From Pusillimonas noertemannii (lineage in GTDB: Bacteria > Pseudomonadota > Gammaproteobacteria > Burkholderiales > Burkholderiaceae_B), in the NCBI RefSeq assembly GCF_003096595.1, contig NZ_QEKO01000005.1:62001-126000 (forward strand): a stretch of DNA of 64,000 nt, given 5' to 3'. The notes under the pieces were generated by a model. That model saw only the letters and a list, made by a program, of their open reading frames with translations, did no database searches and was not told the DNA's origin. The translations under genes were made by a program, and so were the position numbers. The first letter of the stretch is position 1. Each line of letters opens with the position of its first letter. Of the stretch, positions 19,834 through 41,749 are shown piece after piece.

Positions 19834-20376
19834 ATGTTGCACAAGTCCAAGTTTTTTCTGTCCATGCTGGCCGGGGCCTTCATGGCCCTGGCGGCGGTTC
19901 CGGCTTTGGCGCTTCAGGCGGGCGACCCGGCCCCCGACTTTGCCTTGCCGGGGTCCGACGGGCAGACCCACCGCCTTTCCGACTATCGCGGCAAGCAGGC
20001 CGTGGTACTGGCCTGGTTTCCCAAGGCCTACACTTATGGCTGCACCATAGAGTGCAAGTCGCTGGCCGAAAACGGCCACCTCATCCGCGAGTACGACGTG
20101 ACCTACTTCATGGCCAGTGTCGATCCCTTGCTGGACAACAAGGGCTTCGCCCACGAGACCGGCGCCGATTTTCCCCTGCTCAGCGATGAAGACAAGGCGG
20201 TGGCCAGGGCGTATGGCGTACTGCACGACAAAGGCTATGCCAAGCGGCACACGTTCTACATCGGCAAGGACGGCACCATCCTGAAGATAGACACGCGCGT
20301 CAACCCCGAGACCTCGGCCGAGGACATGGCGAAGACGCTGGGCGAATTGGACGTGAAGCGGACGGCGGGCAAGTAG
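19834..20376 (+). CDS. Secreted peroxiredoxin (BCP/AhpC-TSA family)
   Basis: A 180-residue protein with a Sec signal peptide (cleavage near PALA-LQ) and a thioredoxin-fold peroxiredoxin domain. The peroxidatic cysteine is C70 in the PxxxTxxC motif (PKAYTYGC) and C74 four residues later may be the resolving cysteine. It would reduce peroxides in the periplasm using an unidentified thiol donor. ATG 19834 follows a clear AGGAGA site and gives the signal peptide. It lies 83 nt after the large membrane-protein gene and ends 19 nt before a convergent receptor gene. Confidence 0.9.
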
Positions 20377-20395: not shown

Positions 20396-22876
20396 CTACC
20401 ACTGCTTGCGCAGGTTCAACAGCACCGTCCGGCCCTGGCCGTAGAAGCATTGCAAGTCGTTCAGGCAGTAGCTGACGTACTTGCGGTCGGCCAGGTTGCT
20501 GGCGGTCAGCGACAGCTTGAAGCCGCTCAGGTTCGGGTTGGCCTTGCCCAAGTCATAGTGGATGGCGGCGTCCCAGAAGGTGTTGGCCGGCAGTTCCAGG
20601 CTCGCGTTCGTATCGGCGTAGTTGGCGCCGATGTAGCGCACGCCTACGCCGGCCGACAGCCCGGCCAGGCCCAGGTGATCGAACTCGTGGTTGACCCACA
20701 GCGAGGCCATGTGACGGGGCACGCGCGGCAGGGGCAGCCCTTCCAGCGAGTTGCCCGAGGCGTCCGGGTTGGCCTTGGTGATCTTGGAGCGCGTATAGGC
20801 GTAGGCGCCGATCACGTCGGTGTTGCCCCATAGCCGCGTGCGGGCTTCCAGGCTGATGCCGCGCGATCTTACCTCGCCGGTCTGGATGCTGAAGAACTCT
20901 CGTCCCGGCTGGGTGTCGGGGGTCAGCATGTTCTTTTGCGTCAGTTGGAAGGCCGAGAGGGTGACAAGCGTATCGGAACCCCCGGGCTGGTACTTGATGC
21001 CCAGCTCGGCCTGCTCCCCCGTCATGGGTTCGTAGGGCTTGCCGTCGAAATCGGTGCCGGCCAGGGGTTCGAACGAGGTCGAGTAGCTGGCGTAGGGCGC
21101 CAGGCCGTTTTCGAATACATAGTTGATGCCCAGCCGCCCGGTAAAGGCTTCGTCGCGGCGCGGCGTGCTGCTGCCGGCCGTCCGGTTCTCGGTGTCTGCA
21201 TCGGCGCGATCGTAGCGGCCGCCGGCCGTGATCACCCAGCCGCCCGCGCGCATCTGGTCCTGCACATACAGGCCGCTTTGCCGCATGGTCTGCAGGGTGC
21301 TGATGCGCGGAATGAGTTCGGGAATGTCGATGCCGTACACCGGGTTGTACAGGTCGATGGGCGCGGCCATGTTGGAGGCGAAGCGGTAGTCGTCCTTCTG
21401 CCTGACGTAGTCGAAACCCATCAGCAGGGTGTGGTCCAGCGCGCCGGTGGAGAAGCTGGCCTGGGCCTGGGTGTCGATGCCCAGGATGCTGCCCGTGCCC
21501 AGGCCCTGCGTGGCCACGCGGTAATAGTTGCGTTCGTCGGCGTCCAGCATATAGCCCGGCGTGCCGCGCGCATCGATGTCCACGTGCGTGTAGCGCATGT
21601 TCTGGCGCACGGTCCAGGTGTCGTTGAAGCGATGCTCGAAGGCATAGCCCAGCGCGTACTGTTCGCGGCCCATTCTTTCGTGCGAGGGCTCGCCGGAAAA
21701 GCGCGAGCGGGGCAGCGTGCCGTTGATGTTGTCGCGCAGCGTGCCCTTGGCGGGCAGGCCCTGGTACTGGGGAATGGTCCGGTCGCGCTGGTAATGGATC
21801 AGCAGCGTCAGCGAAGTGTCGGCCGAAGGGCGCCAGGTAAAGCTTGGGGCGATCAGGGCGCGCTTTTCTTCCGAAAAGTCCGTCATGCCGTCGGCCTTCC
21901 TGGCCAGGCCGGTGATGCGGTAGAGCAGCTTCTGCTCGGCGTCCAGCGGGCCGGTCGAGTCGAAGGCCAGCTTGCCGCCGGCCGGGTGGCTGCCCTGCAG
22001 CCACAGCTCGTGCTGCGGGTCGGCCTGGGGCCGGCGGCTGACCATGTTCAGGATGCCTCCCGGCGTGGTCTGGCCGAACAGGCCCGAAGAGGGCCCTTGC
22101 AGCACTTCGATGCGCTCGAGCATATAGGGGTCGAACTGGGGCACCGAAACACTGTAGGCGCTGAACGGCAGCACGATGCCGTCGAGGTACTGGCGCACGA
22201 ACAGGCCGCCGCGCGCCTTGACCACGTCATAGCGGCTGTCGGTGCCGCCGAAGGCCGCGATCACGCCGGGCGTGTAGCCCACCGCGTCGTTCACCGTCTG
22301 GGCGCCCTGCATCTCGATCTGGTCGCGCGTGACCACATTGATGGTCTGGGGTGCTTCGAGGATGGACGTGTTGGTCTTGGTGGCCGTGGCCGTGCGCTGG
22401 GCCGTCAGGCCGGCCACGGGGCCGTAGGGGTTCTCCAGCTGCGCCGTGACGACGACGGGCGACAGCGTAGATACGTCGGTGCCCGAAGGAGGCGGCGCGG
22501 CCCGCAGCGAATAGGCGCCGTTGGCGCCCTGGATGACCTGAAGGCTTTGCCCTTGCAGGATGCGGGCGAAGCCTTCATGCACATTGAAGCTTCCTTGCAG
22601 GCCGGGACTGTGCTTGCTTTGCGTCAGCGACGAGGCAGCCGAGAGCTCCACGCCGGCCGCCTGGGCGAACCGATTCAGCACCGTGCCCAGCGGCCCAGCC
22701 GGGATATCGTAGCTGCGCTGCGCCTGCTCTTGCGCCTGGGCTCGCGCCGGCCCCGCCAGGGCCAGCGGCCCCAGCGCCAGGCCCGCGCATAGCGCGGCAC
22801 GCAGCACAGAGGGAAGAAAGCGGGAAACTGCTTGGGTATGCCGGTGCGTATTCGTGTCGGTGGAAGGCAGGGCCAT
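20396..22876 (-). CDS. TonB-dependent ferric-siderophore receptor with signalling domain
   Basis: The 826-residue outer-membrane receptor has a signal peptide, a secretin/TonB N-terminal (STN) signalling domain (about 50-110), a plug domain with LEAPQTINVVTRDQI, and a beta-barrel ending in ...LNLRKQW with the terminal aromatic residue. STN domains contact FecR-type proteins, and fecR plus fecI genes lie just upstream on the same strand, so this is a cell-surface signalling receptor in the FecA/FpvA style. The ligand cannot be told from sequence. Start ATG 22876 is preceded by AGGA and yields the signal peptide. Confidence 0.93.
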   Translation of the reverse strand: MALPSTDTNTHRHTQAVSRFLPSVLRAALCAGLALGPLALAGPARAQAQEQAQRSYDIPAGPLGTVLNRFAQAAGVELSAASSLTQSKHSPGLQGSFNVHEGFARILQGQSLQVIQGANGAYSLRAAPPPSGTDVSTLSPVVVTAQLENPYGPVAGLTAQRTATATKTNTSILEAPQTINVVTRDQIEMQGAQTVNDAVGYTPGVIAAFGGTDSRYDVVKARGGLFVRQYLDGIVLPFSAYSVSVPQFDPYMLERIEVLQGPSSGLFGQTTPGGILNMVSRRPQADPQHELWLQGSHPAGGKLAFDSTGPLDAEQKLLYRITGLARKADGMTDFSEEKRALIAPSFTWRPSADTSLTLLIHYQRDRTIPQYQGLPAKGTLRDNINGTLPRSRFSGEPSHERMGREQYALGYAFEHRFNDTWTVRQNMRYTHVDIDARGTPGYMLDADERNYYRVATQGLGTGSILGIDTQAQASFSTGALDHTLLMGFDYVRQKDDYRFASNMAAPIDLYNPVYGIDIPELIPRISTLQTMRQSGLYVQDQMRAGGWVITAGGRYDRADADTENRTAGSSTPRRDEAFTGRLGINYVFENGLAPYASYSTSFEPLAGTDFDGKPYEPMTGEQAELGIKYQPGGSDTLVTLSAFQLTQKNMLTPDTQPGREFFSIQTGEVRSRGISLEARTRLWGNTDVIGAYAYTRSKITKANPDASGNSLEGLPLPRVPRHMASLWVNHEFDHLGLAGLSAGVGVRYIGANYADTNASLELPANTFWDAAIHYDLGKANPNLSGFKLSLTASNLADRKYVSYCLNDLQCFYGQGRTVLLNLRKQW

Positions 22877-23102
22877 GAAAATAATCCTTATTGTCCGGAA
22901 ACCCCCCGGGACCGTGCCGGGCGGGAAGCGCTTGCCATACACGGCGCGGCGCGGCCTTGCCATGTATTGCGGTATTCATCATCTATTCCGAACAAGAACG
23001 GCAAGTCCTCAATGCCGCGGCGGATTATTTTGTAACAATGCTATGGAAGGGGCTGGTTTCGCGGCTGCGATCGCTGGCCGGCACGAGCCCCGCCGTGGTC
23101 CT

Positions 23103-24104
23103 TCAGCGCGGGTTCACAGTGACCCAGTAGCGGCTGCGGTACGAAGCCTGGACGGGTAGGGCAAGCTCGAGATTGGCCAGCGCCCGATCGGTGTCTGCCA
23201 GGGGGAAGACCCCGGTAACCGACAGCTTGGCGACTTCCGGCGAGCAGCGCAGCAGCCCGGGCCGATAGCGGCCCAGTTCGCGCAGGAAGTCTTCGATGCG
23301 CATGTTCTCGGCCACCAGCAGGCCTTGCGTCCAGGCCGCTTCGCTTTCGAAGGCGCGGCTTGCGGGCTGCGCGTGGCGGCTGGAAAACGCGCTGCGCTGG
23401 CCCGCGTCGAGCTGCAGCGCGGATGCATGGCCGGGTTGTATGCGCACCGCTCCTTCGTAGACCGCCACGCGCGAGGCATCGCCGTCGAGCCGCACCGTAA
23501 AGCGCGTGCCCAGGGCGCGTATGGTGCCGTGGGGACTGCGCACCACGAAGGGCCGGGGCGGCGTGGCGGGGTCGGGGCTGGTCGTGACCAGGATCTCGCC
23601 CGAGCGCAGCACGACCTCGCGCAGGTTTTCGTCGAAGCGCAGGTCGATGGCGCTGGCGGTGTTCAGCAGCAGCCGGGTGCCGTCGGCCAGCGCGATCTCG
23701 CGTATTTCGCCCACGCCGGTGCTGTAGTCGCTGGAGATGCCGAGCCAGGCCTGGCTGTCGCGCAGAACGGGCAGGGCGCCGGCCGTGAGCGCCGCCACGG
23801 CCAGAACCTGCAGCGCCCGGCGCCGCGACGGTCCGCCCTTGGCGGCGGGTTCCATCAGTACGGGGGCGGCGTGCTGCGGCAGGTTCTGCAGCTTGTCGTC
23901 GAAGACCTGCAGGCGCCGCCAGGCGCGCTCGTTGTCGGGATGGGCCGCGCGCCACCTGCGACAGGCGGCGTGATCAGCCTCGCAGGCGTCGTCGGCCCAA
24001 AGCCGCGCCATCCATTGCGCGGCCTTTTGAACCACGGCCGGGTCCAGGGCCTGCCGCCGGTCAGGCTCGGGCGCAACGGGCAGGGAGGCGGGATGTTCAG
24101 CCAT
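23103..24104 (-). CDS. FecR-family anti-sigma factor / signal transducer
   Basis: A 333-residue protein with the cytoplasmic FecR N-terminal domain (AAQWMARLWADD, then HPDNERAWRRLQ), one membrane segment near residue 95-115, and a periplasmic FecR domain (ADGTRLLLNTASAIDLRF, then SPHGTIRALGTRFTV). It relays siderophore binding from the receptor to the sigma factor. Its ATG overlaps the end of the sigma gene by 8 nt, showing translational coupling. The receptor gene follows about 225 nt downstream. Confidence 0.93.
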   Translation of the reverse strand: MAEHPASLPVAPEPDRRQALDPAVVQKAAQWMARLWADDACEADHAACRRWRAAHPDNERAWRRLQVFDDKLQNLPQHAAPVLMEPAAKGGPSRRRALQVLAVAALTAGALPVLRDSQAWLGISSDYSTGVGEIREIALADGTRLLLNTASAIDLRFDENLREVVLRSGEILVTTSPDPATPPRPFVVRSPHGTIRALGTRFTVRLDGDASRVAVYEGAVRIQPGHASALQLDAGQRSAFSSRHAQPASRAFESEAAWTQGLLVAENMRIEDFLRELGRYRPGLLRCSPEVAKLSVTGVFPLADTDRALANLELALPVQASYRSRYWVTVNPR

Positions 24105-24609
24105 GGTTGCCAAGCGCCAGGCAGCAGGCCTGGAGCCCGCGCGCGATGTATTTTTCAACCGACGACACCGAGACGTTCAATTGCGCGGCGATCTGGCCGT
24201 AGCTCAAGCCTTCGAGCTTGCGCAGCAGCAGGGCGCGCCGGGCCTTTTCGGGCAGGCCGTGCAGCGCGGCGTCGATCTCGACCAGGGCTTCGACGGCCAG
24301 GGCGCGGGCCTCTTCGGACGGCGCTTCGGGTTCGGGCAGCAGGCTGATGGTATGCAGATAGGCCGCCTCGATGCGGCGCCGACGATACAGGTCTATGACC
24401 AGGCCGTTGGCCACCCGGGCCAGATAGCGGCGCGAGTGGCGGGGCTCGGGCAGGCTGCCGCCGCTCAGGATGCGCACATAGGTGTCGTGGGCCAGGTCGG
24501 CCGCGTCGAAGGCGTTGCCCAGCTTTCGGTGCAGCAGGCCGCGCAGCCAGCCGTGATGGTCGCTGTAGAAGGATTCGATTTCCTGCGGCGGAGACTGGAC
24601 CGTGGCCAT
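24097..24609 (-). CDS. FecI-type ECF sigma factor
   Basis: A 170-residue extracytoplasmic-function sigma factor. Region 2 includes DAADLAHDTYVRIL and the DNA-melting segment; region 4 carries the helix-turn-helix LSYGQIAAQLNVSVSSVEKY. Sigma factors of this subgroup direct RNA polymerase to the cognate receptor gene when the siderophore is bound. A Fur-like box lies about 50 nt upstream of the start, consistent with iron repression. It heads the order fecI-fecR-receptor. Confidence 0.95.
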   Translation of the reverse strand: MATVQSPPQEIESFYSDHHGWLRGLLHRKLGNAFDAADLAHDTYVRILSGGSLPEPRHSRRYLARVANGLVIDLYRRRRIEAAYLHTISLLPEPEAPSEEARALAVEALVEIDAALHGLPEKARRALLLRKLEGLSYGQIAAQLNVSVSSVEKYIARGLQACCLALGNHG

Positions 24610-24659
24610 AAAAGGGAAGAGCGGGCAGGATGCCCTGGCTGTAGGCGGAATTTAACTTC

Positions 24660-24678
24660 GATAATAAGAATTAGTCGC
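24660..24678. promoter_or_regulatory. Candidate Fur box upstream of fecI (first locus)
   Basis: GATAATAAGAATTAGTCGC matches the 19-bp Fur consensus at 13 positions, with the left hexamer perfect. It sits in the 356-bp gap between fecI and the divergent PepSY gene, in an AT-rich patch, and could serve both. The rest of the gap shows no gene. Confidence 0.55.
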
Positions 24679-24965
24679 ATTATAGTTATAATGGCGAAAA
24701 TTGCCTATATGGCCTTGCGCAGCCAAGGGTCCGCGGGCCCCTCTCTGCGCAAGGCCCGCATGTGGCAGGGCCATGTGGCATCGGCGGCAAACGGCCGGCC
24801 GACAGGCTCCTGAATCAGGTTGTTACAAAAAAGGGAAGTCCGGAATTACGGGTTTCGCGGCTTCAAACGTCTTAGATAGTAAGAGGCGAATTTCATCGCC
24901 GGATGAATCGTGCGCGCGGATGGCGCCCGCACGGCCCATGCAACGGAAGTCAAAGGTACACAGGC

Positions 24966-26165
24966 GTGACTCAAGCAAAAAAAGTCTCTAAATCGAAGCT
25001 CTGGTTTCTGGTGCACAGCTGGCTGGCGCTGCCCCTGTGGGTGTTCGTCTTTTTCGTGTGCGTCACCGGCACCATTGCCACGGTAAGCCAGGAAATCGTC
25101 TGGCTGGCCAACCCCGCGGTGCGGGCCAACGCGCCCTCCGACGATGCGCAGATGCTGGGCTACGACGCCATCCTCGAGGTCATCGAGCGCGAGCATCCCG
25201 GTGCGGTGGTCGAGTTCATTTCCCGGCCGGTCAAATCGCAGTTTGCACTCACGGCTCGTGTCGCCTATCCGGACGCCACCGAGGCCTCGCTGTACGTCAA
25301 CCCCTACACGGGCCAGATCCAGGGCAGCACCTCGGGCTTCAGCTTCCAGCAGTTCATGCGTGCGCTGCATGGATGGCTGCTGGTGCCTTTCACTGAAGGC
25401 TTCAGCCTGGGCTGGTATATCGTGGCCTTCCTGGGCATACCGATGCTGGCTTCCCTGGTTACCGGCCTTGTCGTATACAAGCGTTTCTGGCGCGGCTTCC
25501 TGAAGCCCAAGCTGCGCCTGCGGCAGGGCGGGCGGGTGTTTTGGGGCGACTTCCACCGGCTGGCGGGCATCTGGTCGATTCCCTTCATCGCCATCATTGG
25601 GGTCACCAGCATCTGGTTCCTGATCCAGGCGGTGCTGTTCGACAACCAGATCTCCTTTTCCACATTCGGCGTGCCGCCCATCGTCGCCCGTGAAGACATT
25701 CCCGTCGTCGCGGCGGGCCAGCCACCACCGGGCATCACGCTCGATCGCGCGGCGCAGATCGCGCAGCAAACCTTTCCCGACCTCGAGGCTTCTTTCGTCA
25801 GCCTGCCTTCCAACGCCTACGACCATATCCGGGTGGGCGGCCGCGGAGCCTACCCCCTGCTGTTCGAAACCATGAGCATCAACCCCTATACCGGGGTGGT
25901 GGAGCACACGCGGCGCGTCTCCGACCGATCGACGCTCGAGCTGGTTACAGGCTCGATGCGTCCCTTGCATACGGGCGACTTCGCCGGAACCTGGCTCAAG
26001 CTCGTGTATGCCTTTTTTGGCCTGCTGCTTAGCATGATGGTCTTCAGCGGCATGCTGATCTGGACCAAGCGCACGGCCAAGGAAACCGTGGCCGAGGTCA
26101 AGCGGCGCAAATCGGCCCGCGCCGCGCGCGCGGTGGTGGCCACTGAAGGCGGGAGTTCGGCATGA
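24966..26165 (+). CDS. PepSY-associated transmembrane protein (siderophore-iron reductase type)
   Basis: About 399 residues with four membrane segments: LWFLVHSWLALPLWVFVFFV near the N-terminus, GWYIVAFLGIPMLASLVTGL, a segment near residue 215, and a C-terminal FFGLLLSMMVFSGMLIW. Large PepSY-type periplasmic loops lie between, and paired histidines (LVHSW, ALHGW, DFHRL) could bind haem. Proteins of this family (PiuB, FpvG) reduce or help release iron from siderophores at the inner membrane. Start GTG 24966 is preferred; ATG 24903 is possible. The next gene overlaps by 4 nt. Confidence 0.85.
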   Translation: MTQAKKVSKSKLWFLVHSWLALPLWVFVFFVCVTGTIATVSQEIVWLANPAVRANAPSDDAQMLGYDAILEVIEREHPGAVVEFISRPVKSQFALTARVAYPDATEASLYVNPYTGQIQGSTSGFSFQQFMRALHGWLLVPFTEGFSLGWYIVAFLGIPMLASLVTGLVVYKRFWRGFLKPKLRLRQGGRVFWGDFHRLAGIWSIPFIAIIGVTSIWFLIQAVLFDNQISFSTFGVPPIVAREDIPVVAAGQPPPGITLDRAAQIAQQTFPDLEASFVSLPSNAYDHIRVGGRGAYPLLFETMSINPYTGVVEHTRRVSDRSTLELVTGSMRPLHTGDFAGTWLKLVYAFFGLLLSMMVFSGMLIWTKRTAKETVAEVKRRKSARAARAVVATEGGSSA

Positions 26166-26713
26166 GCAAGGCTGCTGCGGCACAAACCCAAGCGCCGACG
26201 TCGTGGTTCGCCCTGAAATGGAAGCGCTGGCGCTTCTATCTCAGCGCCTTCGTGCTGATCGCGCCGCTGGCCTACCTGCCCACGTATTTTGAAGACCTGG
26301 CCCTCGAGCGCGGCGACGTCGGCCTGGGCCAGCGCGACATCGGTGAAATCACCGCCGGTCCCTGGAGCGTGCGCCTGGCCGAATGGCAAATCGGCGCGCC
26401 CGAGCGCGAGGGGCTGGCGGGCTACGCAAAAGTCTTTACCCTGGCCCAGTGCCGGGAATGCATCGGGCAGATCAAGGCCATCTACATGCGGGTGGGCGAG
26501 CCGCGCAGCCTGCGCACGGCGGGCTCTTTGTTCGCCGGCAGCCCGTACCGGCAGATGGCCGAAGTCCTCATTCCGGAGCAGGCCTCGCCCGAGGCGCAAT
26601 TGTGGCTCACGCTTGAAGGCTGGGACGGCGCCGTACACCAGGTGCGCGTGCCTTTGTCGGACGCTTCGCCTTCCACCGTTCAATGGTTGAAACAACGCAA
26701 CAGGAGGCCCTGA
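26162..26713 (+). CDS. Membrane-anchored protein of unknown function in the siderophore locus
   Basis: A 183-residue protein with one membrane segment (about 27-45, YLSAFVLIAPLAYLPTYF) and a periplasmic remainder containing a CRECIGQ motif (Cys-x2-Cys). I do not recognise the family. It overlaps the PepSY gene (ATGA) and the next gene (TGATG), so the three are translationally coupled. The layout resembles the fpvGHJK cluster of Pseudomonas, where small membrane and periplasmic proteins assist iron release from pyoverdine. A helper role, perhaps through the cysteine pair, is inferred. Confidence 0.75.
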   Translation: MSKAAAAQTQAPTSWFALKWKRWRFYLSAFVLIAPLAYLPTYFEDLALERGDVGLGQRDIGEITAGPWSVRLAEWQIGAPEREGLAGYAKVFTLAQCRECIGQIKAIYMRVGEPRSLRTAGSLFAGSPYRQMAEVLIPEQASPEAQLWLTLEGWDGAVHQVRVPLSDASPSTVQWLKQRNRRP

Positions 26714-27129
26714 TGGCCGGATTCGATTTTTTTGCCGCCAAGCCATCGCAAGGCCGGAAACTCCACTCCGCCAGCGGGCAGGCCGTCTTGGTCCAGCGCG
26801 GCGCTGGGGCGCTTTCCGCCGCCTTGCGGCTGGCTGCGGGCGTGGGCCTTTGCGTGGCGTCCGCCGCAGCATGGGCGCATTTCCCCGTGGGCCAATGCAA
26901 AGCGCTCGACGAACACACCATACAATGCAAGGGCGGGTTCTCCGACGGCAGCAATGCGCCCGGGCTTACGCTCGAGGTGATCTCGTACGACGAGAAAACC
27001 CTGGTGTCCGACAAGCTGGACAAGAATTCCAGCATCACCTTCAAGCGACCGGCCGTTCCGTTCTACATTCTGTTCGACGCCGGCGCCGGCCACACCGTCG
27101 AAGTCGACCATACGCAGGTCGGCTCTTAA
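26713..27129 (+). CDS. Small exported protein of the siderophore locus
   Basis: A 138-residue protein with a late hydrophobic signal segment (about 35-55) and a cleavage site near AAAWA-HF. The mature part is about 80 residues, with two cysteines (GQCKALDEHTIQC) and a beta-rich C-terminus (PFYILFDAGAGHTVEVDH). GGAGG precedes ATG 26713, which overlaps the previous stop by one base. It is the last gene of the PepSY operon. No enzyme motif is visible; it may bind a metal or siderophore, but that is speculative. Confidence 0.75.
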   Translation: MAGFDFFAAKPSQGRKLHSASGQAVLVQRGAGALSAALRLAAGVGLCVASAAAWAHFPVGQCKALDEHTIQCKGGFSDGSNAPGLTLEVISYDEKTLVSDKLDKNSSITFKRPAVPFYILFDAGAGHTVEVDHTQVGS

Positions 27130-27257
27130 CTCTTAAGGCTTTGCCTCCTGGTCCTTGAGCCGGGCGCTTGCCGCCCGGCGCCGCGCATTGCAGCGGCTTG
27201 GCAAGCTGCTTGCTGGCGTCTGATTCCGAACTCTCGTTTCCACGGGGCAGGCTTAGG

Positions 27258-29696
27258 ATGACGCGCGCGTTACGGCCTTGGTTGGCCGCTCTTTGCTTGT
27301 GCTGCCTGGCGTTGTCGCTGGGCCTGGGTGTTGCTGCGTCCCAAGCGCTTGCCCAGGCTGCTGCGGCGCCCGCGATCGAGGACGTGAGTACGGTCCTGGA
27401 CAAGACCCAGGCGGCGGTCACCCGAATCCAGGAGCGCCTGAAGCAAAAGCCGCAGGGCATAGAAGATACAGAGCTGGTCGCGATGCGCGACACCCTGCAG
27501 GAAGCTCAGTCGCGAGCCGACGACATCGCTGCTCAGCTCGAGCCGGAACTGGCCGGCGTTCAGGCGCGCCTGAAAGAGCTCGGAACGCCCGCCCCCGACG
27601 CTCCAGAGCCTCCCGACATCGCCCAGCAGCGGGCACAATTGACGAAGCGGCAGTCCCTGCTCGATTCCCAGATCAAGCTGGCCCGGCTGATGGGGGTGGA
27701 CGCAAGGCAGGGCCAGGACCAGATTTCCGTCTTGCGCCGGGCCCGCTTCCAGGCCGAGCTGGGCGAGCGCACGCAATCGTTGCTGACGCCCAGCTTCTGG
27801 CGCAATGTCATGCGGGACGCGCCTCGGGACATGCGGCGGCTTGACGGCTTGCTGGACGAACTGGGCGACAGCTTGAGGGCCGTGCCCACCCACGTGTGGT
27901 CCACGGCGCTGGCCCTGGCAATGTTGCTGCTGCTCGGCGGAGAAGTGGGCCGGCGCGGCCTGGCCACCTCTACCGTCAGGCACACCCAACCCGCCCGCCT
28001 GCGCCGGTCGATTTTCGCGGTATTGACGGTGGTGCCTTATACCGTGGTGCCCGGCCTGCTCGCCACCATCCTTCTTTTCGTCCTGCGGTGGGGGGGCGAG
28101 CTGGGGGCCGATCTAAGCGCGTTCCTGCAGCAAAGCGTGATAGTCGTCTACCTGGCGGGAGCCATGGCGGGCCTGGGCACCGTGCTGCTTTCTCCCGCGC
28201 GCCCCAGTTGGCGATTGCCGGCCCTGACCGACGGGCTGGCCAACACGCTGGCCTGGGTTCCCGCGGTCTTTGCCGTGACCTTCGCGCTGGCGTGGACGGC
28301 CCAGCGGCTGCTGGAGCTGATCAACGCCTCGCTAAGCACCATTCTGCTCGTGAACGGCGCCATGACGGTCGCGCTCAACATCTTGATCGGCTTTACAGCC
28401 CTGAGCCTGCGGTCCAGCCTGCGCGGGCAGGCGCAACAGGCGTCGGCGCAGGCGCCCGCCGCGGCCTCGCCGGTGCTTTCCTGGGCCAGGGCCGTGCCCT
28501 CGGTACTGGTTTTTGTCATTTCGGTGAGTCTGGTGGCCTTCTTGCTGGGTTTCATCGCGCTAAGCAGCCTGGTAGCCCAGGAAATAATCTGGTTGGCCGT
28601 CATTGGCAGCATCACCTATCTTCTGGTGGTGCTGATTACCGATGTGTTCGACAGCCTGGTTGCCAAAGTGGGCAGGGAGCAGGCGGCCGGCCTGTTGAGC
28701 GCGCAGCAGGCGCGAACCCGCTGCCAGCTGCTGGTGCTGATATCGGGCATGCTGCGGCTGATGCTGGTTTTAAGCGCCATTGCCCTCGTTCTCTTGCCCT
28801 TCGGAGAAAACCCCGGCGAATGGCTGCAGCGCCGGCTGGGCTTCCTGACGAGCGGTTTCAAGGTGGGCGAGGCGCAGATCAGGCCGGCTTCCATCGCCTC
28901 GACCATGATCGTGCTATTGGCCGGCGTCTATGCCGTCCGGGTCCTGAGGACGTGGATATCCGACCAGTTCCTGCCCGTGACGCGGCTGGACGAGAGCATG
29001 CGCACCTCGGCCGCCAATCTGGTCGGCTACCTGGGTTATTTTGCCGTCGTCATGATGGCGATTTCGTCCCTGGGCATCGGCCTGGAGCGCATGGCGTGGA
29101 TCGTCAGCGCCCTGTCGGTCGGGATAGGGTTTGGCCTGCAGGCGGTGGTGCAGAACTTCGTGTCAGGCGTGATTCTTGTGGCAGAGCGGCCCATCTAGGT
29201 GGGCGACTGGGTCAGCCTGGACGGCGGCGTCGAGGGCAATGTGCGCAAGATCAGCGCCCGCGCAACGGAAATCGAAATGTTCGATTGCTCGACGATGATC
29301 GTCCCGAATTCCGAGTTCATCACCAAGAAGGTGCGCAACGTGACCATGGCCAACCCCCTGGGTGTGGTCACGCTTAAATTCAACATGCCGCTCAATGTCA
29401 ACGCCGACGTCGTGCGCGACATCATGAAGACGGCCATGGACACGCAGCAAGAGGTCCTCGACAAACCGGCGCCGGCCGTCACGCTGGAGACCTTCAGCGA
29501 GGTGGTGCTGACTTTCTCGGCGACCTGCTACGTGTCTTCGCCACGTCATGTCGGCAGGGTGCGCAGCGAACTGATGTTCGACATACTGGGCGCGCTGCGC
29601 AAGCGCGACATCAAGACGCACGCCATGCCGCCGGCGGGCGATGCCCCCGTGCCTGCGGGCAGCGCCGCACCGCCGCCAGATGCTCCGCCGCTTTAG
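27258..29696 (+). pseudogene. MscS-type mechanosensitive channel (DUF3772) interrupted by TAG
   Basis: The gene would encode about 812 residues: signal peptide, DUF3772 periplasmic region, many membrane helices, and an MscS domain. An in-frame TAG at 29196-29198 falls inside the conserved motif ERPI-x-VGDWV, replacing one residue just after the pore-lining helix. The frame continues without other damage through the beta-domain (IVPNSEFITKKVRNVT) to a stop at 29696. A truncated 646-residue product would lack the cytoplasmic cage. GTG directly follows the TAG, so restart is conceivable. A single recent substitution is the simplest explanation. Confidence 0.88.
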
Positions 29697-29814: not shown

Positions 29815-30321
29815 ATGTCCCGCCCACCTGCGTCAAAAAAAGGCTGGCTCGCTCATTACAGCGAGCTGGTCGGCACGTGGGCGCGGCGGGCGGACAGTCC
29901 TCAGGACGCCGAAGACGCCACGCACGACGCCATTCTTCGGGTGCTGGAGAACGACGCCGCCGCCCTGGCCAACCCACGCGCCTATCTGCATCGCAGCGTG
30001 CGCAATCGCCTGATCGACAAGCATCGCCAGTCCCGGCTGCTCGACGTGGTTCCCTTGCACGAACTGGAGGAATACGAGCACCCCCTGTTGACGGACCCCG
30101 ATGCCCAGGCGCGTACGGCGCAATTGCTGGCGTCGCTCAAAGAGGCGCTCGCCGAACTGCCGTTCAAGTGCCGCCAGGTATTCTTGTTGCACAGGCTCGA
30201 GGGCCATACCCAGGAGGAAATTGCGCAGAAACTGGGTATTTCGGTCAATATGGTTGAAAAGCACATGACCCGGACGGTCAGGCATCTTCGAGAAAGGTTA
30301 CATAATCATGCGCCCAATTGA
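29815..30321 (+). CDS. FecI-type ECF sigma factor (second locus)
   Basis: A 168-residue ECF sigma factor: region 2 with SPQDAEDATHDAILRVLEN and region 4 with HTQEEIAQKLGISVNMVEKH. It forms a pair with the fecR gene 85 nt downstream and carries its own Fur-like box. Such sigma factors normally drive a receptor gene directly downstream of fecR; here only a short receptor remnant is left, so its target must be elsewhere or lost. Confidence 0.95.
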   Translation: MSRPPASKKGWLAHYSELVGTWARRADSPQDAEDATHDAILRVLENDAAALANPRAYLHRSVRNRLIDKHRQSRLLDVVPLHELEEYEHPLLTDPDAQARTAQLLASLKEALAELPFKCRQVFLLHRLEGHTQEEIAQKLGISVNMVEKHMTRTVRHLRERLHNHAPN

Positions 30322-30406
30322 TTCGGGTTTTTTGCCTTTTCACTCGTCTTATTCAATGAAAGGGTAGAACAACCGCCGGCGCCCGTGCGCTGGATAGCCA
30401 CTTGCC

Positions 30407-31399
30407 ATGAACACAGAACACCCGAACCTTCCCACCGACCCTCGCGACGCAGCCGCCTACTGGTTTGCCCGCGTGCATTCGGGCACATTTACCGTGGCCG
30501 AGCGGGAATGGTTCGCACAATGGCGCCAGGCCGACAGCCGGCACGAGCGCGAGTACCGGGCGCTGGACGAAATCTGGCAGGCCACCGGCATGCTGCCCGA
30601 AGATGAGCTGCGCGAACTGCTCGAGGCGCCCGAGCCTCTTGCCGAGCGGCGCCGGCAGTCCCGCAGGCGCTGGCTGGCGGGGGCGGGCGCGGCCTGTACC
30701 GCGGCTGTCGTAGGCGGCGTGCTGTTCCACAGCTATGGAACGGAAACCCCTGATCACGTCCAGCGCCTTGCTACGGCCCTGGGCGAGCGGCGCAAGGCGT
30801 CACTGTCCGATGGTTCGATCATCGATATGAATGTTTCCACCGAACTCATCGTCAGCTACTACGCTACGCGCCGCACCGTCGAATTGCTGGGCGGCGAAGC
30901 GACGTTCAGCGTTGCGGCCAATTCGGGCAGGCCGTTCTTCGTGAACGCGGGCGATGTGGACGTCCGCGTCACCGGCACTGTCTTCAATGTCCGCCGGGAG
31001 CCGGATCATGTTTCCGTGGCGGTGCGGGAGGGGTCTGTGGAAGTAGCTTCGGGCCGCTGGTGGAATCGCGCAAGGGCCGTGCTGACGGCCGACATGGCGG
31101 CCAGCGCGCGGCCGGGCCATCCGCTGCTTGCCGAGCGGGCCGATGTCGCCGCGCTGACAGCCTGGCGGCAGGGCAAGGTGGTGTTCAAGGACCAGCCGCT
31201 TGAAGAGGTGCTGCAAGAAATGAATCGCTACCTCTCCCACCCCATTCACCTGGCCGACAGCCGGCTCAAGCGTCTGCGCATGGCGGGCGTCTTCAGCATA
31301 GATGACGCCGAAGGCTTCCTGCTGGCCTTGCAGGGGCAATTGCCTATCGCTGTCGTGCGGCGGCCGGATGGCGGGGTCGATCTCTCGCTGCTGCGCTGA
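30407..31399 (+). CDS. FecR-family anti-sigma factor / signal transducer (second locus)
   Basis: A 330-residue protein: N-terminal cytoplasmic domain (AAAYWFARVHSGTFTVAERE, WRQADSRHEREYRALDEIW), membrane segment about 88-108, and periplasmic FecR domain (LSDGSIIDMNVSTELIVSYY, then NAGDVDVRVTGTVFNV). The C-terminal STN-like part (LEEVLQEMNRYLSHPIHLAD) is intact and would contact a receptor. The cognate receptor gene immediately downstream has been reduced to a C-terminal fragment. Confidence 0.93.
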   Translation: MNTEHPNLPTDPRDAAAYWFARVHSGTFTVAEREWFAQWRQADSRHEREYRALDEIWQATGMLPEDELRELLEAPEPLAERRRQSRRRWLAGAGAACTAAVVGGVLFHSYGTETPDHVQRLATALGERRKASLSDGSIIDMNVSTELIVSYYATRRTVELLGGEATFSVAANSGRPFFVNAGDVDVRVTGTVFNVRREPDHVSVAVREGSVEVASGRWWNRARAVLTADMAASARPGHPLLAERADVAALTAWRQGKVVFKDQPLEEVLQEMNRYLSHPIHLADSRLKRLRMAGVFSIDDAEGFLLALQGQLPIAVVRRPDGGVDLSLLR

Positions 31400-39304: not shown

Positions 39305-41749
39305 GTGATTGATAGGATCTCTCCCGCTGCCCTTAGGGTGAACAGCAAGAAGTGTCACACTCCCGCAGTTATTTCGGCGACCTTGTCCAGCTTGGCGATT
39401 GCCATTTCCCTGGCGTTAATGGTCGCGCCGCAGCCGGTTCGTGCGCAGGAAACCGCCACACAGATCCATATCCAGCAACAGTCGCTTAGCGACGCGCTGC
39501 TGCAGCTTGGACAGCAGACGCCATTGCAGTTTGTTTACATAACTGAATTGGTACGAGGCATCCCGGCACCGCCAGTCAGCGGTCGAATGACGCCGGAGGA
39601 AGCGTTGCGGCGATTGCTGGCCGGTACGGGGATCGAGTATTCGCGTACGGGGAATACGATCAATCTTTGGAAAAGCGGAGGCGCGACGCAGTTGGCGCCC
39701 GTGGTAGTGACAGGCTCCTACAGTGCGCAGACTGAGGGTTCACAGTCCTACGCCGCCAGCGCGGCGACCATTGGCAAGACCGAACAGGCGCTCAAGGACA
39801 TTCCGCAATCGGTTACGGTGGTAACGCGCCAGCGTATCGACGACCAGAATCTGTCCACCATCAGCGAGGTGCTGGAGAACACCACGGGCGTGACGATCAG
39901 CGAGGTGGCCGACGGCGGGCGCAATTTCTATTCGCGCGGGTTCAAGATCACGAATATCCAGTACGACGGCGTGCCGCTGTCGCGCAGTTTCTATGCGGTG
40001 GGCAATAGCTTTACCGGCAGCACGGCGCATCTGGATCGGGTGGAGGTGTTCCGCGGCGCGCAGGGCCTGTTCGAAGGCGCCGGCCAGCCTGGCGGCTCGA
40101 TCAACTTGGTGCGCAAGCGCCCGACCGCCGAGACGCAGGTGTTGATGGAGGCGCGCGCGGGCTCGTGGGACCATGTGGGTGGCATGCTGGATGCGGGCGG
40201 GGCCTTGAACGCGGATGGCAGCCTGCGGGCGCGGGCGGTGCTGGATCTGGATTCCAAGGGTTCGTTCATCGACGTGGTGAAGGAGCGCAACAACAATCTG
40301 TACTTCGCGCTGGATTACGACCTGTCGCCCAGCACGACAGTGGGCGCGGGTGTGCTGGTGTCGCGCCTGCGGTCCACGCCGTTCTTCGGTGGCCTGCCGC
40401 GGTATAGCGACGGCAGTTCGCTGGGGCTGAAGCGGTCGACCTTTCTGGGCGCGGACTGGAACCAGTGGGACCGGGACGAGACGCAGGTGTTTGCCGACTT
40501 GACCCATCGCTTCAATAGCGACTGGCGCTTGAACGTCGCCGCAACGTATGCGAAGGAGACAAGCCTGACCTATATGCTGGACGCGACGGGCGCGGTGGAT
40601 CCGGCAACTTTGACGGGTACGATGCGCAACGCATGGAATTACGACAAGTCGGCGGAGCACATCGGTTTTGATGCGAATGTGAACGGGCGCTTCACGGTGC
40701 TGGGCATGGCGCAGGACCTGACAGTGGGCGTGAGCATGTCGCGGCTGACGTCGACGGACCGCATCGCATACGCCTCCAACTATCTGCCGCTGGACGTGTT
40801 CCATCCCAATCCGCATGTGCCCAAGCCAGACAGCTTTCCGGATTCTCAGCGCACGTCGCGCTATGATCCGCATGTGCAGAAAGGCATCTATGCGCAGCTG
40901 CGCAGCAGTCTGACGGAAGACCTGACGCTGGTGTTGGGCGGGCGTTTCAGCTGGTTTGAAAGCCGCTATACCACGCAGGCCGCCACGTGGGACGATGTCA
41001 GTACCGCCAAGGCCAGCGCGGAGTTTACGCCCATGGTGGGGCTGGTCTACGCGCTGACGCCGCAGTGGTCGGCCTACGCCAGCTATGCGGATATCTTCGA
41101 GCCACAAACGGCCACCACGCTGGACGGCAGCATCTTGAAGCCCATCGTCGGCGCGAACTACGAAGTGGGCGTGAAGGGCGAGCTGATGGACGGCAAGCTG
41201 AATACGTCGTTCGCCCTGTATCGCATCGACCAGAAGAACCGCGCGGTGCAGGACTACGAGGCCGGGCCGGTGTGCAACGGCGGGTATTGTTCGCGCGCGG
41301 CGGGCAAGGTGCGCAGCCAGGGCTTCGAGGCCGAGATTAGCGGCGAGATCTTGCCGGGTCTACAGGTGGCGGCGGGCTATACCTTCAACAGCAATAAGTT
41401 CCTGAGCGATCCGGACCGCGAAGGCCAGACTTTCAGCGAGGAAACGCCGCGGCACCTGTTGCGTCTATGGAGCCAATACCGCTTGCCCGGTCAGTGGAAC
41501 CGCCTGAGCGTGGGCGCGGGCGTGAATTGGCAGAGCGCGCTGACCAACAGCATCTCGAAGGTGCGCCGACCGTCGTACAGCGTGTGGAACGCGCGGGTCG
41601 CGTATGACGTGACGTCGAATTGGACGGCGGCGTTGAACGTGAACAATCTGTTCGACAAGGTGTATTACGAGTACCCGGGTTATGTTGAGAACCGCAATAA
41701 CTACGGCGCACCGCGTAGCGTAATGTTGACTCTGCGTGGACGATTCTGA
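39305..41749 (+). CDS. TonB-dependent siderophore receptor with STN domain
   Basis: The 814-residue outer-membrane protein has a signal peptide ending near PVRAQE, an STN domain (about 50-100; LSDALLQLGQQTPLQFVYI), plug (LKDIPQSVTVVTRQRIDDQN) and a barrel ending in MLTLRGRF. It belongs to the ferric-siderophore receptor group (FpvA/FoxA-like). Despite the signalling domain no fecI/fecR genes are adjacent; the orphan FecIR pair 8 kb upstream could serve it. The start is read as GTG 39305, preceded by AGGAAAA; no ATG gives a proper signal peptide. Confidence 0.92.
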   Translation: MIDRISPAALRVNSKKCHTPAVISATLSSLAIAISLALMVAPQPVRAQETATQIHIQQQSLSDALLQLGQQTPLQFVYITELVRGIPAPPVSGRMTPEEALRRLLAGTGIEYSRTGNTINLWKSGGATQLAPVVVTGSYSAQTEGSQSYAASAATIGKTEQALKDIPQSVTVVTRQRIDDQNLSTISEVLENTTGVTISEVADGGRNFYSRGFKITNIQYDGVPLSRSFYAVGNSFTGSTAHLDRVEVFRGAQGLFEGAGQPGGSINLVRKRPTAETQVLMEARAGSWDHVGGMLDAGGALNADGSLRARAVLDLDSKGSFIDVVKERNNNLYFALDYDLSPSTTVGAGVLVSRLRSTPFFGGLPRYSDGSSLGLKRSTFLGADWNQWDRDETQVFADLTHRFNSDWRLNVAATYAKETSLTYMLDATGAVDPATLTGTMRNAWNYDKSAEHIGFDANVNGRFTVLGMAQDLTVGVSMSRLTSTDRIAYASNYLPLDVFHPNPHVPKPDSFPDSQRTSRYDPHVQKGIYAQLRSSLTEDLTLVLGGRFSWFESRYTTQAATWDDVSTAKASAEFTPMVGLVYALTPQWSAYASYADIFEPQTATTLDGSILKPIVGANYEVGVKGELMDGKLNTSFALYRIDQKNRAVQDYEAGPVCNGGYCSRAAGKVRSQGFEAEISGEILPGLQVAAGYTFNSNKFLSDPDREGQTFSEETPRHLLRLWSQYRLPGQWNRLSVGAGVNWQSALTNSISKVRRPSYSVWNARVAYDVTSNWTAALNVNNLFDKVYYEYPGYVENRNNYGAPRSVMLTLRGRF

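Follow-up and report, generated by a model that had tools for sequence, protein, structure and literature searches.

The locus described here lies in a contig of Pusillimonas noertemannii (NZ_QEKO01000005.1, positions 62,001 to 126,000 of the forward strand). This whole stretch of 64,000 nucleotides is called the window, and positions below are window positions. The source genome (G000) comprises 4.2 Mb in 15 contigs and belongs to the same genus as genome G357. Six genes of the window form an apparent siderophore locus (Table 1): a receptor gene, fecR and fecI on the minus strand, and a PepSY gene with two genes of small proteins on the plus strand. An earlier reading of the letters alone (the sequence-only reading) had placed all six correctly, and their families are the expected ones. 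It had also described the plus-strand trio as tightly coupled, and the three frames indeed overlap by 4 and 1 base pairs; because of these overlaps the trio, called G, H and J below, very probably forms a single operon. That reading proposed a new version of an iron-release machine. Instead, we found the known Fpv family without FpvK and FpvCDEF and with a FoxA/FhuA-type receptor adjoining. What is new here is this reduced arrangement of a known family, together with one functional lead, the likeness between FpvJ and NikL.

Table 1. Genes and conserved intergenic blocks of the siderophore locus (window positions)
Feature	Position	Strand	Basis and remarks
TonB-dependent ferric-siderophore receptor, FoxA/FhuA type, STN-like N-terminal domain	20396-22876	-	open reading frame 20396-22963
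FecR-type anti-sigma regulator	23103-24104	-	Pfam FecR 4.4e-24, DUF4880 1.5e-11
FecI-type extracytoplasmic function (ECF) sigma factor	24097-24609	-	Pfam Sigma70_r4_2 4e-18; TIGR02937 sigma70-ECF above cut-off
AT-rich conserved block before fecI	24657-24692	.	near-identical in L018 and L021; Fur-box-like site at 24660
Conserved block before trio, candidate promoter element	24845-24879	+	kept in window, L018, L021
G: FpvG-like PepSY_TM protein, predicted haem-dependent ferric-siderophore reductase, 399 amino acids	24966-26165	+	PepSY_TM 3.6e-59; GTG start
H: FpvH-like protein (P0002), 183 amino acids, N-terminal helix and periplasmic-type domain	26162-26713	+	homologues beside PepSY genes; AlphaFold2 (AF2) model
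J: FpvJ-like exported protein (P0003), 138 amino acids, predicted mature N-terminus His56	26713-27129	+	homologues in fpv operons

The identity of the trio as FpvG-FpvH-FpvJ is well supported by homology. The published fpvGHJKCDEF operon of Pseudomonas aeruginosa encodes the inner-membrane proteins FpvG and FpvH, periplasmic FpvJ, FpvK, the substrate-binding protein FpvC, the ATP-binding cassette (ABC) transporter FpvDE and the substrate-binding protein FpvF (PMC6954188). FpvG is the reductase and interacts with FpvH and FpvJ, while the function of FpvH, FpvJ and FpvK was described as unknown in 2020 (PMC6954188). Homologues of H and J found by tblastn against plasmids are adjacent in Azospirillum, Cereibacter, Shinella and Vibrio, and homologues stand in the published fpvGHJKCDEF order in Azospirillum, Achromobacter and Pseudomonas loci. 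Two Azospirillum plasmids are annotated in the order PepSY–H–J–DUF6162–zinc-type substrate-binding protein–ATPase–permease–substrate-binding protein, and Cereibacter and Vibrio carry similar sets; Pfam confirmed DUF6162, ZnuA and ABC-3 on selected members of the homologous operons. We assign the trio to the Fpv family because this gene order and component list equal the published ones. The FpvC of the Pollutimonas operon scores 508 bits against the solved chains 6ru4/6r3z, named ‘Probable adhesion protein’, which we take to be P. aeruginosa FpvC (PA2407).

The sequence-only reading had compared the layout with FpvGHJK of Pseudomonas. This comparison was right and has become stronger, since the likeness extends to homology: FpvG, FpvH and FpvJ have their counterparts in the PepSY protein, H and the exported J, and the gene order is also the same. 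The reading had also called the two small proteins unknown. Neither matches a Pfam family, but both have homologues in the fpv operon. The window H, which adjoins G, is 44-81% identical to 19 and 34% identical to two of the 21 other rows of alignment A4; the window J, which is exported and follows H, is 47-74% identical to the other 23 rows of alignment A3. When genomes were scanned with the alignment of J, at least 556 relatives were found, and 70 of the best 80, which were kept, are titled Pseudomonas. H is carried by 27 of 250 genomes and 11 of 43 genera in the family of the window, by five of 300 genomes in a sample of its order (the source genome is counted in both), and by 177 of 398 genomes of Pseudomonadaceae. 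Linkage to pvd genes was considered as proof of identity and rejected: no pyoverdine biosynthesis family was matched at E 1e-20 by the ten flanking proteins at the Pseudomonas loci L022, L024, L067 and L076.

To describe the gene sets, we scanned 119 loci with profile hidden Markov models (92 from L006-L097, 26 from L132-L157, and the window). Duplicates were kept, six places being included twice, and nearly all loci had been fetched for matching H or J. G, H and J follow in that order in 95 of the 119 loci, so the arrangement is not due to chance. The plain order GHJKCDEF is found in 79 loci. A further 21 have the same genes with an apparently changed order (some through overlapping overlong frames), with a gene split or fused, or with a contig end. 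Six loci at five distinct places contain only GHJ: the window, L018 and L132 (both P. caeni), L149, L016 and L017. Nine contain only GH, namely L007, whose J frame is truncated, and L150-L157, where J was not detected. Three loci (L012, L013, L059) have JKCDEF with no G or H in the fetched stretch; L008 reads HJKCDEF and has a divergent PepSY protein below the G cut-off; and the order JKCDEFGH is seen in L044/L142 and L144-L148. Therefore G and H behave as one block and K, C, D, E and F as another, while J goes with either. The fpv set may be modular: GH would be its reductase block and KCDEF its transport block, and J would serve as an interface able to move with either of them.

The window belongs to the loci that have no transport block. 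FpvK (DUF6162) had no match in the 22 kb around the operon, the only part of the genome searched for it, and none of FpvCDEF lies at the locus. Searches of the source genome for FpvC and FpvE gave no orthologue of either: the FpvC matches are 28-31% identical and the single FpvE match is 29% identical. An FpvC search in ten genomes gave 77-84% identity for the full-operon genomes other than that of the query (in G318 as two pieces, 84 and 70%), and at most 31% (G000, G357, G498) or no match (G025, G072) for the GHJ-only genomes. In a tree of H (51 rows, Pseudomonas thinned to every sixth, midpoint root only, with long branches and one doubtful join flagged) the window pairs with P. caeni (100/99) within a group that holds the full-operon loci L021 and L133 (99/96). 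The absence of C and E, seen in 14 rows with GH and GHJ taken together, requires at least four changes on this tree. In L021 the full operon is accompanied by the same receptor, 78% identical to that of the window, and by close FecR and FecI proteins. Because this near relative has the receptor beside the full set and the window is nested among full operons, the ancestral operon probably held fpvKCDEF, which would have been lost in the lineage of the window.

After the loss of the transporter the trio might be a decaying remnant that has no function. Decay is indeed seen in relatives: J is truncated to 69 amino acids in Shinella HZN7, and fpvC of L021 reads in two frames. In the window, however, all three frames are open, H and J are 81% and 74% identical to those of P. 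caeni, the motifs are kept, and the region upstream is conserved. We give this explanation very little credence.

The receptor points to the kind of siderophore. Its barrel domain matches the Pfam family for TonB-dependent receptors at 4.1e-68. It scores 391 bits with TIGR01783 (cut-off 223.5), 622 of the 803 bits needed with the FhuA model, and 22.2 bits with Pfam STN, below the cut-off of 28.4. Among solved structures it matches FoxA with 559 bits and FhuA with 468 bits, compared to 78 bits for the ferripyoverdine receptor; it is not a pyoverdine-type receptor like FpvA. The start is more likely the ATG at 22876, since the part that resembles the L021 receptor sets in just ahead of this methionine. 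Since the receptor resembles FoxA and FhuA, the siderophore taken up is likely a hydroxamate.

Of the components of FecI/FecR surface signalling, FecI and FecR are clear, and the STN match of the receptor is below its cut-off. The sigma factor scores 172 bits with the NCBIfam FecI models, below both cut-offs (185 and 260). Between fecI and the trio are two conserved blocks (Table 1), which are only suggestive of regulatory elements. The Fur-box-like site in the first block matches at 13 of 19 positions, a score that eight of 500 shuffled versions of the intergenic region reach or exceed. In the 64 kb, eight further sites score 13 or more; two of these overlap each other at 22874-22895, immediately before the likely start of the receptor gene. 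The G gene has a possible alternative ATG start at 24903. Farther on in the window is a second pair of FecI-like (29815-30321) and FecR-like (30407-31399) genes on the plus strand (29815-31399), and the only other receptor-like match in the window is at 39305-41749.

G has four hydrophobic segments, and His17, His135, His197 and His335 are present in all 88 aligned rows (duplicates kept; the fragmented L061 and G-like proteins below 100 bits or 330 amino acids left out). Four haem-ligand histidines flanking the transmembrane segments have been described for FoxB (PMC13038864), and, as compared by description, those of G agree with them in number and placement. We infer that G is a haem-dependent periplasmic ferric-siderophore reductase. 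In Escherichia coli, ferrichrome crosses the inner membrane intact. By such a route the ferric siderophore could also be imported here, through an unlinked permease and with the trio as an accessory only. However, the operon retains a haem-type reductase, and in Burkholderia cenocepacia alcaligin was the only tested bis- or tris-hydroxamate for which the PepSY protein FhuB is not obligatory (PMC10866019), so that intact import seems very improbable. Ten places in the source genome match PepSY_TM above the Pfam cut-off, which suggests that this genome encodes many siderophore or metal reductases.

The AF2 model of H (mean predicted local distance difference test score, pLDDT, 90.4) consists of a helix at residues 15-37 and a beta-sandwich. 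A simple hydropathy scan of H found no segment above the threshold; we consider H to be anchored in the membrane because of this helix and the published location of FpvH in the membrane (PMC6954188). The CxxC motif noticed in the sequence-only reading is C97-R-E-C100. It occurs in 87 of 93 H frames, when sought anywhere after residue 60 and not at an aligned column, and in six of the 11 rows of the broader alignment A2. The emphasis that the reading laid on it does not hold, as homologues in Shinella, Azospirillum and one Vibrio plasmid have no such motif. As a required redox centre it was rejected: six of the 93 frames have none after residue 60 (L006 and L007 of Shinella; L009, L010, L026 and L073 of Azospirillum). 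Because it is absent from several lineages, CxxC is probably not an essential redox centre. The invariant core of H is found outside this motif, in GPW, KPRSLR-AG and the LWLT-EGWDG region.

In all five frames checked (L008, L016, L150, L151, L152) an H domain is joined with DUF3325, and longer PepSY_TM proteins are encoded alongside. The PepSY protein of the Vibrio plasmid L011 itself ends in an H domain. Given these frames and this fusion, H seems to pair with more than one kind of PepSY protein. DUF3649 additionally adjoins the H-DUF3325 frame in L008 and L151. The profiles of H and J have no mutual similarity. A sequence search of solved structures gave only weak StcE matches for H. In a fold search the top match was the copper-resistance protein CrdA of Helicobacter pylori (Z 8.4, root-mean-square deviation (rmsd) 2.9, 96 aligned residues), which is barely above the typical best of the tool and is only a hint.

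This fold match bears on another possibility, that the trio handles copper or another metal and not siderophore iron, in the manner of CrtA-CrpH of Bordetella pertussis. CrpH of that species belongs to the PepSY_TM proteins and probably reduces copper (PMC13038864), and J, for its part, matches a subunit of a nickel transporter. Yet the receptor is of the ferrioxamine/ferrichrome type and stands beside FecI and FecR, and the trio belongs to the Fpv set for iron release. We therefore hold the handling of copper or another metal to be highly improbable.

J provides the functional lead. The sequence-only reading described it as a small exported protein with two cysteines, and the mature part does contain two (C62 and C72), one more being in the leader. 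Among 95 J frames above 60 bits (duplicates kept; L012 is below that cut) all have HxPx(2-4)C and 90 have GxGHxxE. All 12 members of alignment A1 match the NCBIfam NikL model (NF058648) at E 0.1 or better, the best at 3.5e-11; the matches are weak but consistent. They start at profile positions 2-6, the site of the histidine, whereas most matches of unrelated long frames start at position 17 or later. As a control, 71 of 398 genomes match the model at E 0.001, and 14 of 398 pass its cut-off. In most of the proteins above the cut-off a histidine follows the signal peptide and a GH pair lies close to where the sandwich ends; the motif GFSNG, exact or slightly varied, occurs in L170-L174, L177 and L181 and is absent from L180, L182 and L183. 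NikL, a component of the NikKMLQO nickel transporters (with NikK/DUF4198), shares with J, in its N-terminal part, an exported N-terminal histidine and a GH motif near the sandwich end, and several NikL proteins share GFS(D/N)G. J differs from NikL in being free and in having a conserved cysteine pair, and its gene adjoins H and a mechanosensitive-channel-like gene, not a Nik operon.

The AF2 model of J is a sandwich of seven strands (pLDDT 80.6). His56 precedes the first strand and His127 the last, and because of this strand order both histidines would lie at the same pole. A sequence search of solved structures with J gave only a weak collagen-adhesion match, and a fold search matched the MG1 domain of E. 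coli alpha-2-macroglobulin (Z 13.5, rmsd 1.2, 76 aligned residues). The latter is a likeness of shape and carries no functional conclusion.

Histidines exposed at the N-terminus by signal cleavage chelate metals, and a DUF4198 protein, encoded near NikR and TonB receptors, binds nickel with a dissociation constant of 18 nM through a site with an N-terminal histidine (PMC12537917). The main text of that source does not mention FpvJ. Some genomes that have no NikMQO carry orphan orthologues of NikL; these were reported in 2009, judged to be perhaps nickel-independent and given no function (PMC2667541). No publication joining FpvJ and NikL was found in the open-access literature searched. Because of the NikL match, the N-terminal histidine and the metal sites of the DUF4198 type, we propose that J receives Fe(II). 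It may be a metal carrier with an N-terminal histidine that shares ancestry with NikL, takes Fe(II) at the reductase and, within a modular fpv set, delivers it to whichever importer is present. This wider reading of J is tentative, and we hold it with rather less than even confidence. If it is true, the link to NikL would give J a testable job.

J may instead bind no metal and act only as an adaptor through which substrate-binding proteins dock onto FpvG-FpvH, a role that has been suggested for P. aeruginosa. There FpvJ contacts FpvC, FpvF and FpvG in two-hybrid and pull-down experiments, and FpvH in the two-hybrid assay (PMC6954188). J also accompanies KCDEF where the order is JKCDEFGH or JKCDEF, and an unlinked binding protein could still serve in GHJ-only genomes. 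On the other hand, J is kept in the five distinct GHJ loci that have no C and F nearby, and a search of those five genomes for FpvC gave no orthologue. An adaptor role also leaves the conserved N-terminal histidine and the NikL match unexplained. We regard a role as adaptor only as somewhat unlikely.

NikL-like proteins also occur elsewhere in the data. The source genome has a cluster of NikO/NikQ/NikM/NikL/NikK-looking genes, accompanied by a gene for a TonB-dependent receptor and one for a regulator resembling NikR (L200, G000:C6, 5138-11452), named by the look of the sequences; its own NikL-like protein there scores 44.9 bits, below the cut-off. In L192 (584-1944, minus strand) a free NikL-like exported protein is followed by a ZnuA-type-looking binding protein, another case of a NikL-like domain by a metal transporter.

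Altogether, we consider it likely that the locus serves siderophore uptake with reductive release of iron in the periplasm by G, H and J, with J accepting Fe(II) and with KCDEF lost. The FoxA/FhuA-type receptor would bring the ferric siderophore into the periplasm and signal through FecR to FecI. FpvG would carry electrons through its histidine-ligated haems and reduce the iron of the siderophore, with FpvH as its membrane partner. As a free beta-sandwich that bears a histidine at its N-terminus, FpvJ would accept the released Fe(II) and hand it on. The functional part of this model, and above all the role of J, is predicted from sequences and structure models. With fpvKCDEF probably lost, Fe(II) would have to enter the cell by an unlinked importer. 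FeoB was considered for this role and rejected, since FeoB_C has no match in the source genome and the nine FeoB_N matches there (22-51 bits) probably belong to other GTPases. The one FTR1 frame, of 646 amino acids and by the look of its sequence with a cytochrome c part, lies about 20 kb beyond the window, and nothing ties it to the system.

Several results weigh against this model. The link to P. aeruginosa FpvG, FpvH and FpvJ is drawn through gene order, domain types and FpvC, and a phmmer search of PDB chains with G gave no match at E 0.01, although FoxB has been solved. The Fur-like site before fecI reaches only 13/19. P0003 matches the NikL model at 1.3e-8 with 35 bits, the cut-off being 100, and unrelated long frames score 20-27.5 bits with this model, compared to about 27-49 bits for the J proteins listed. 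J has no C-terminal membrane helix of the kind found in NikL and ends with the sandwich in the AF2 model, and the histidine of GxGH is not universal (90/95). No importer was identified, and no FeoB core (FeoB_C) was found in the source genome.

Compared to FpvGHJKCDEF, which releases iron from pyoverdine in P. aeruginosa, the window locus has neither FpvK nor FpvCDEF, has a receptor of the FoxA/FhuA type instead of the FpvA type, and includes a divergent FecI/FecR pair. In other respects it resembles FoxA/FoxB of P. aeruginosa, FhuA/FhuB of B. cenocepacia and HiuABC of Caulobacter, which likewise combine a hydroxamate-type receptor and a PepSY protein with no linked ABC transporter. This likeness is by description, and partners of the FpvH and FpvJ kind are not among the descriptions of FoxB, FhuB and HiuB that we compared. 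Likened by description, too, HiuC is another small membrane partner of a PepSY protein: it is predicted to bind HiuB and is needed for ferrioxamines and not for ferrichrome (PMC12424826).

The GHJ-only loci separate the helpers of the reductase from the binding proteins FpvC and FpvF and, if J is indeed a carrier related to NikL, would show that J works without these two proteins. Hussein and co-authors point out that for FoxB and FhuB, too, the importer that takes up the freed Fe(II) is still to be found (PMC10866019). A GHJ-only genome with no detected FpvC, FpvE or FeoB core sharpens this question for release of the FoxB/FhuB type.

The neighbouring genes complete the picture of the locus. 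A gene for an exported AhpC/TSA-type peroxiredoxin (19834-20376, plus strand) is convergent with the receptor gene. The mechanosensitive-channel-like gene that follows the trio (27168-29696, plus strand) is interrupted by an in-frame stop. Among the ten loci compared, such a gene is found 3' of J besides only in L018, and this P. caeni counterpart (10539-12977 of L018) is a single frame of 812 amino acids.

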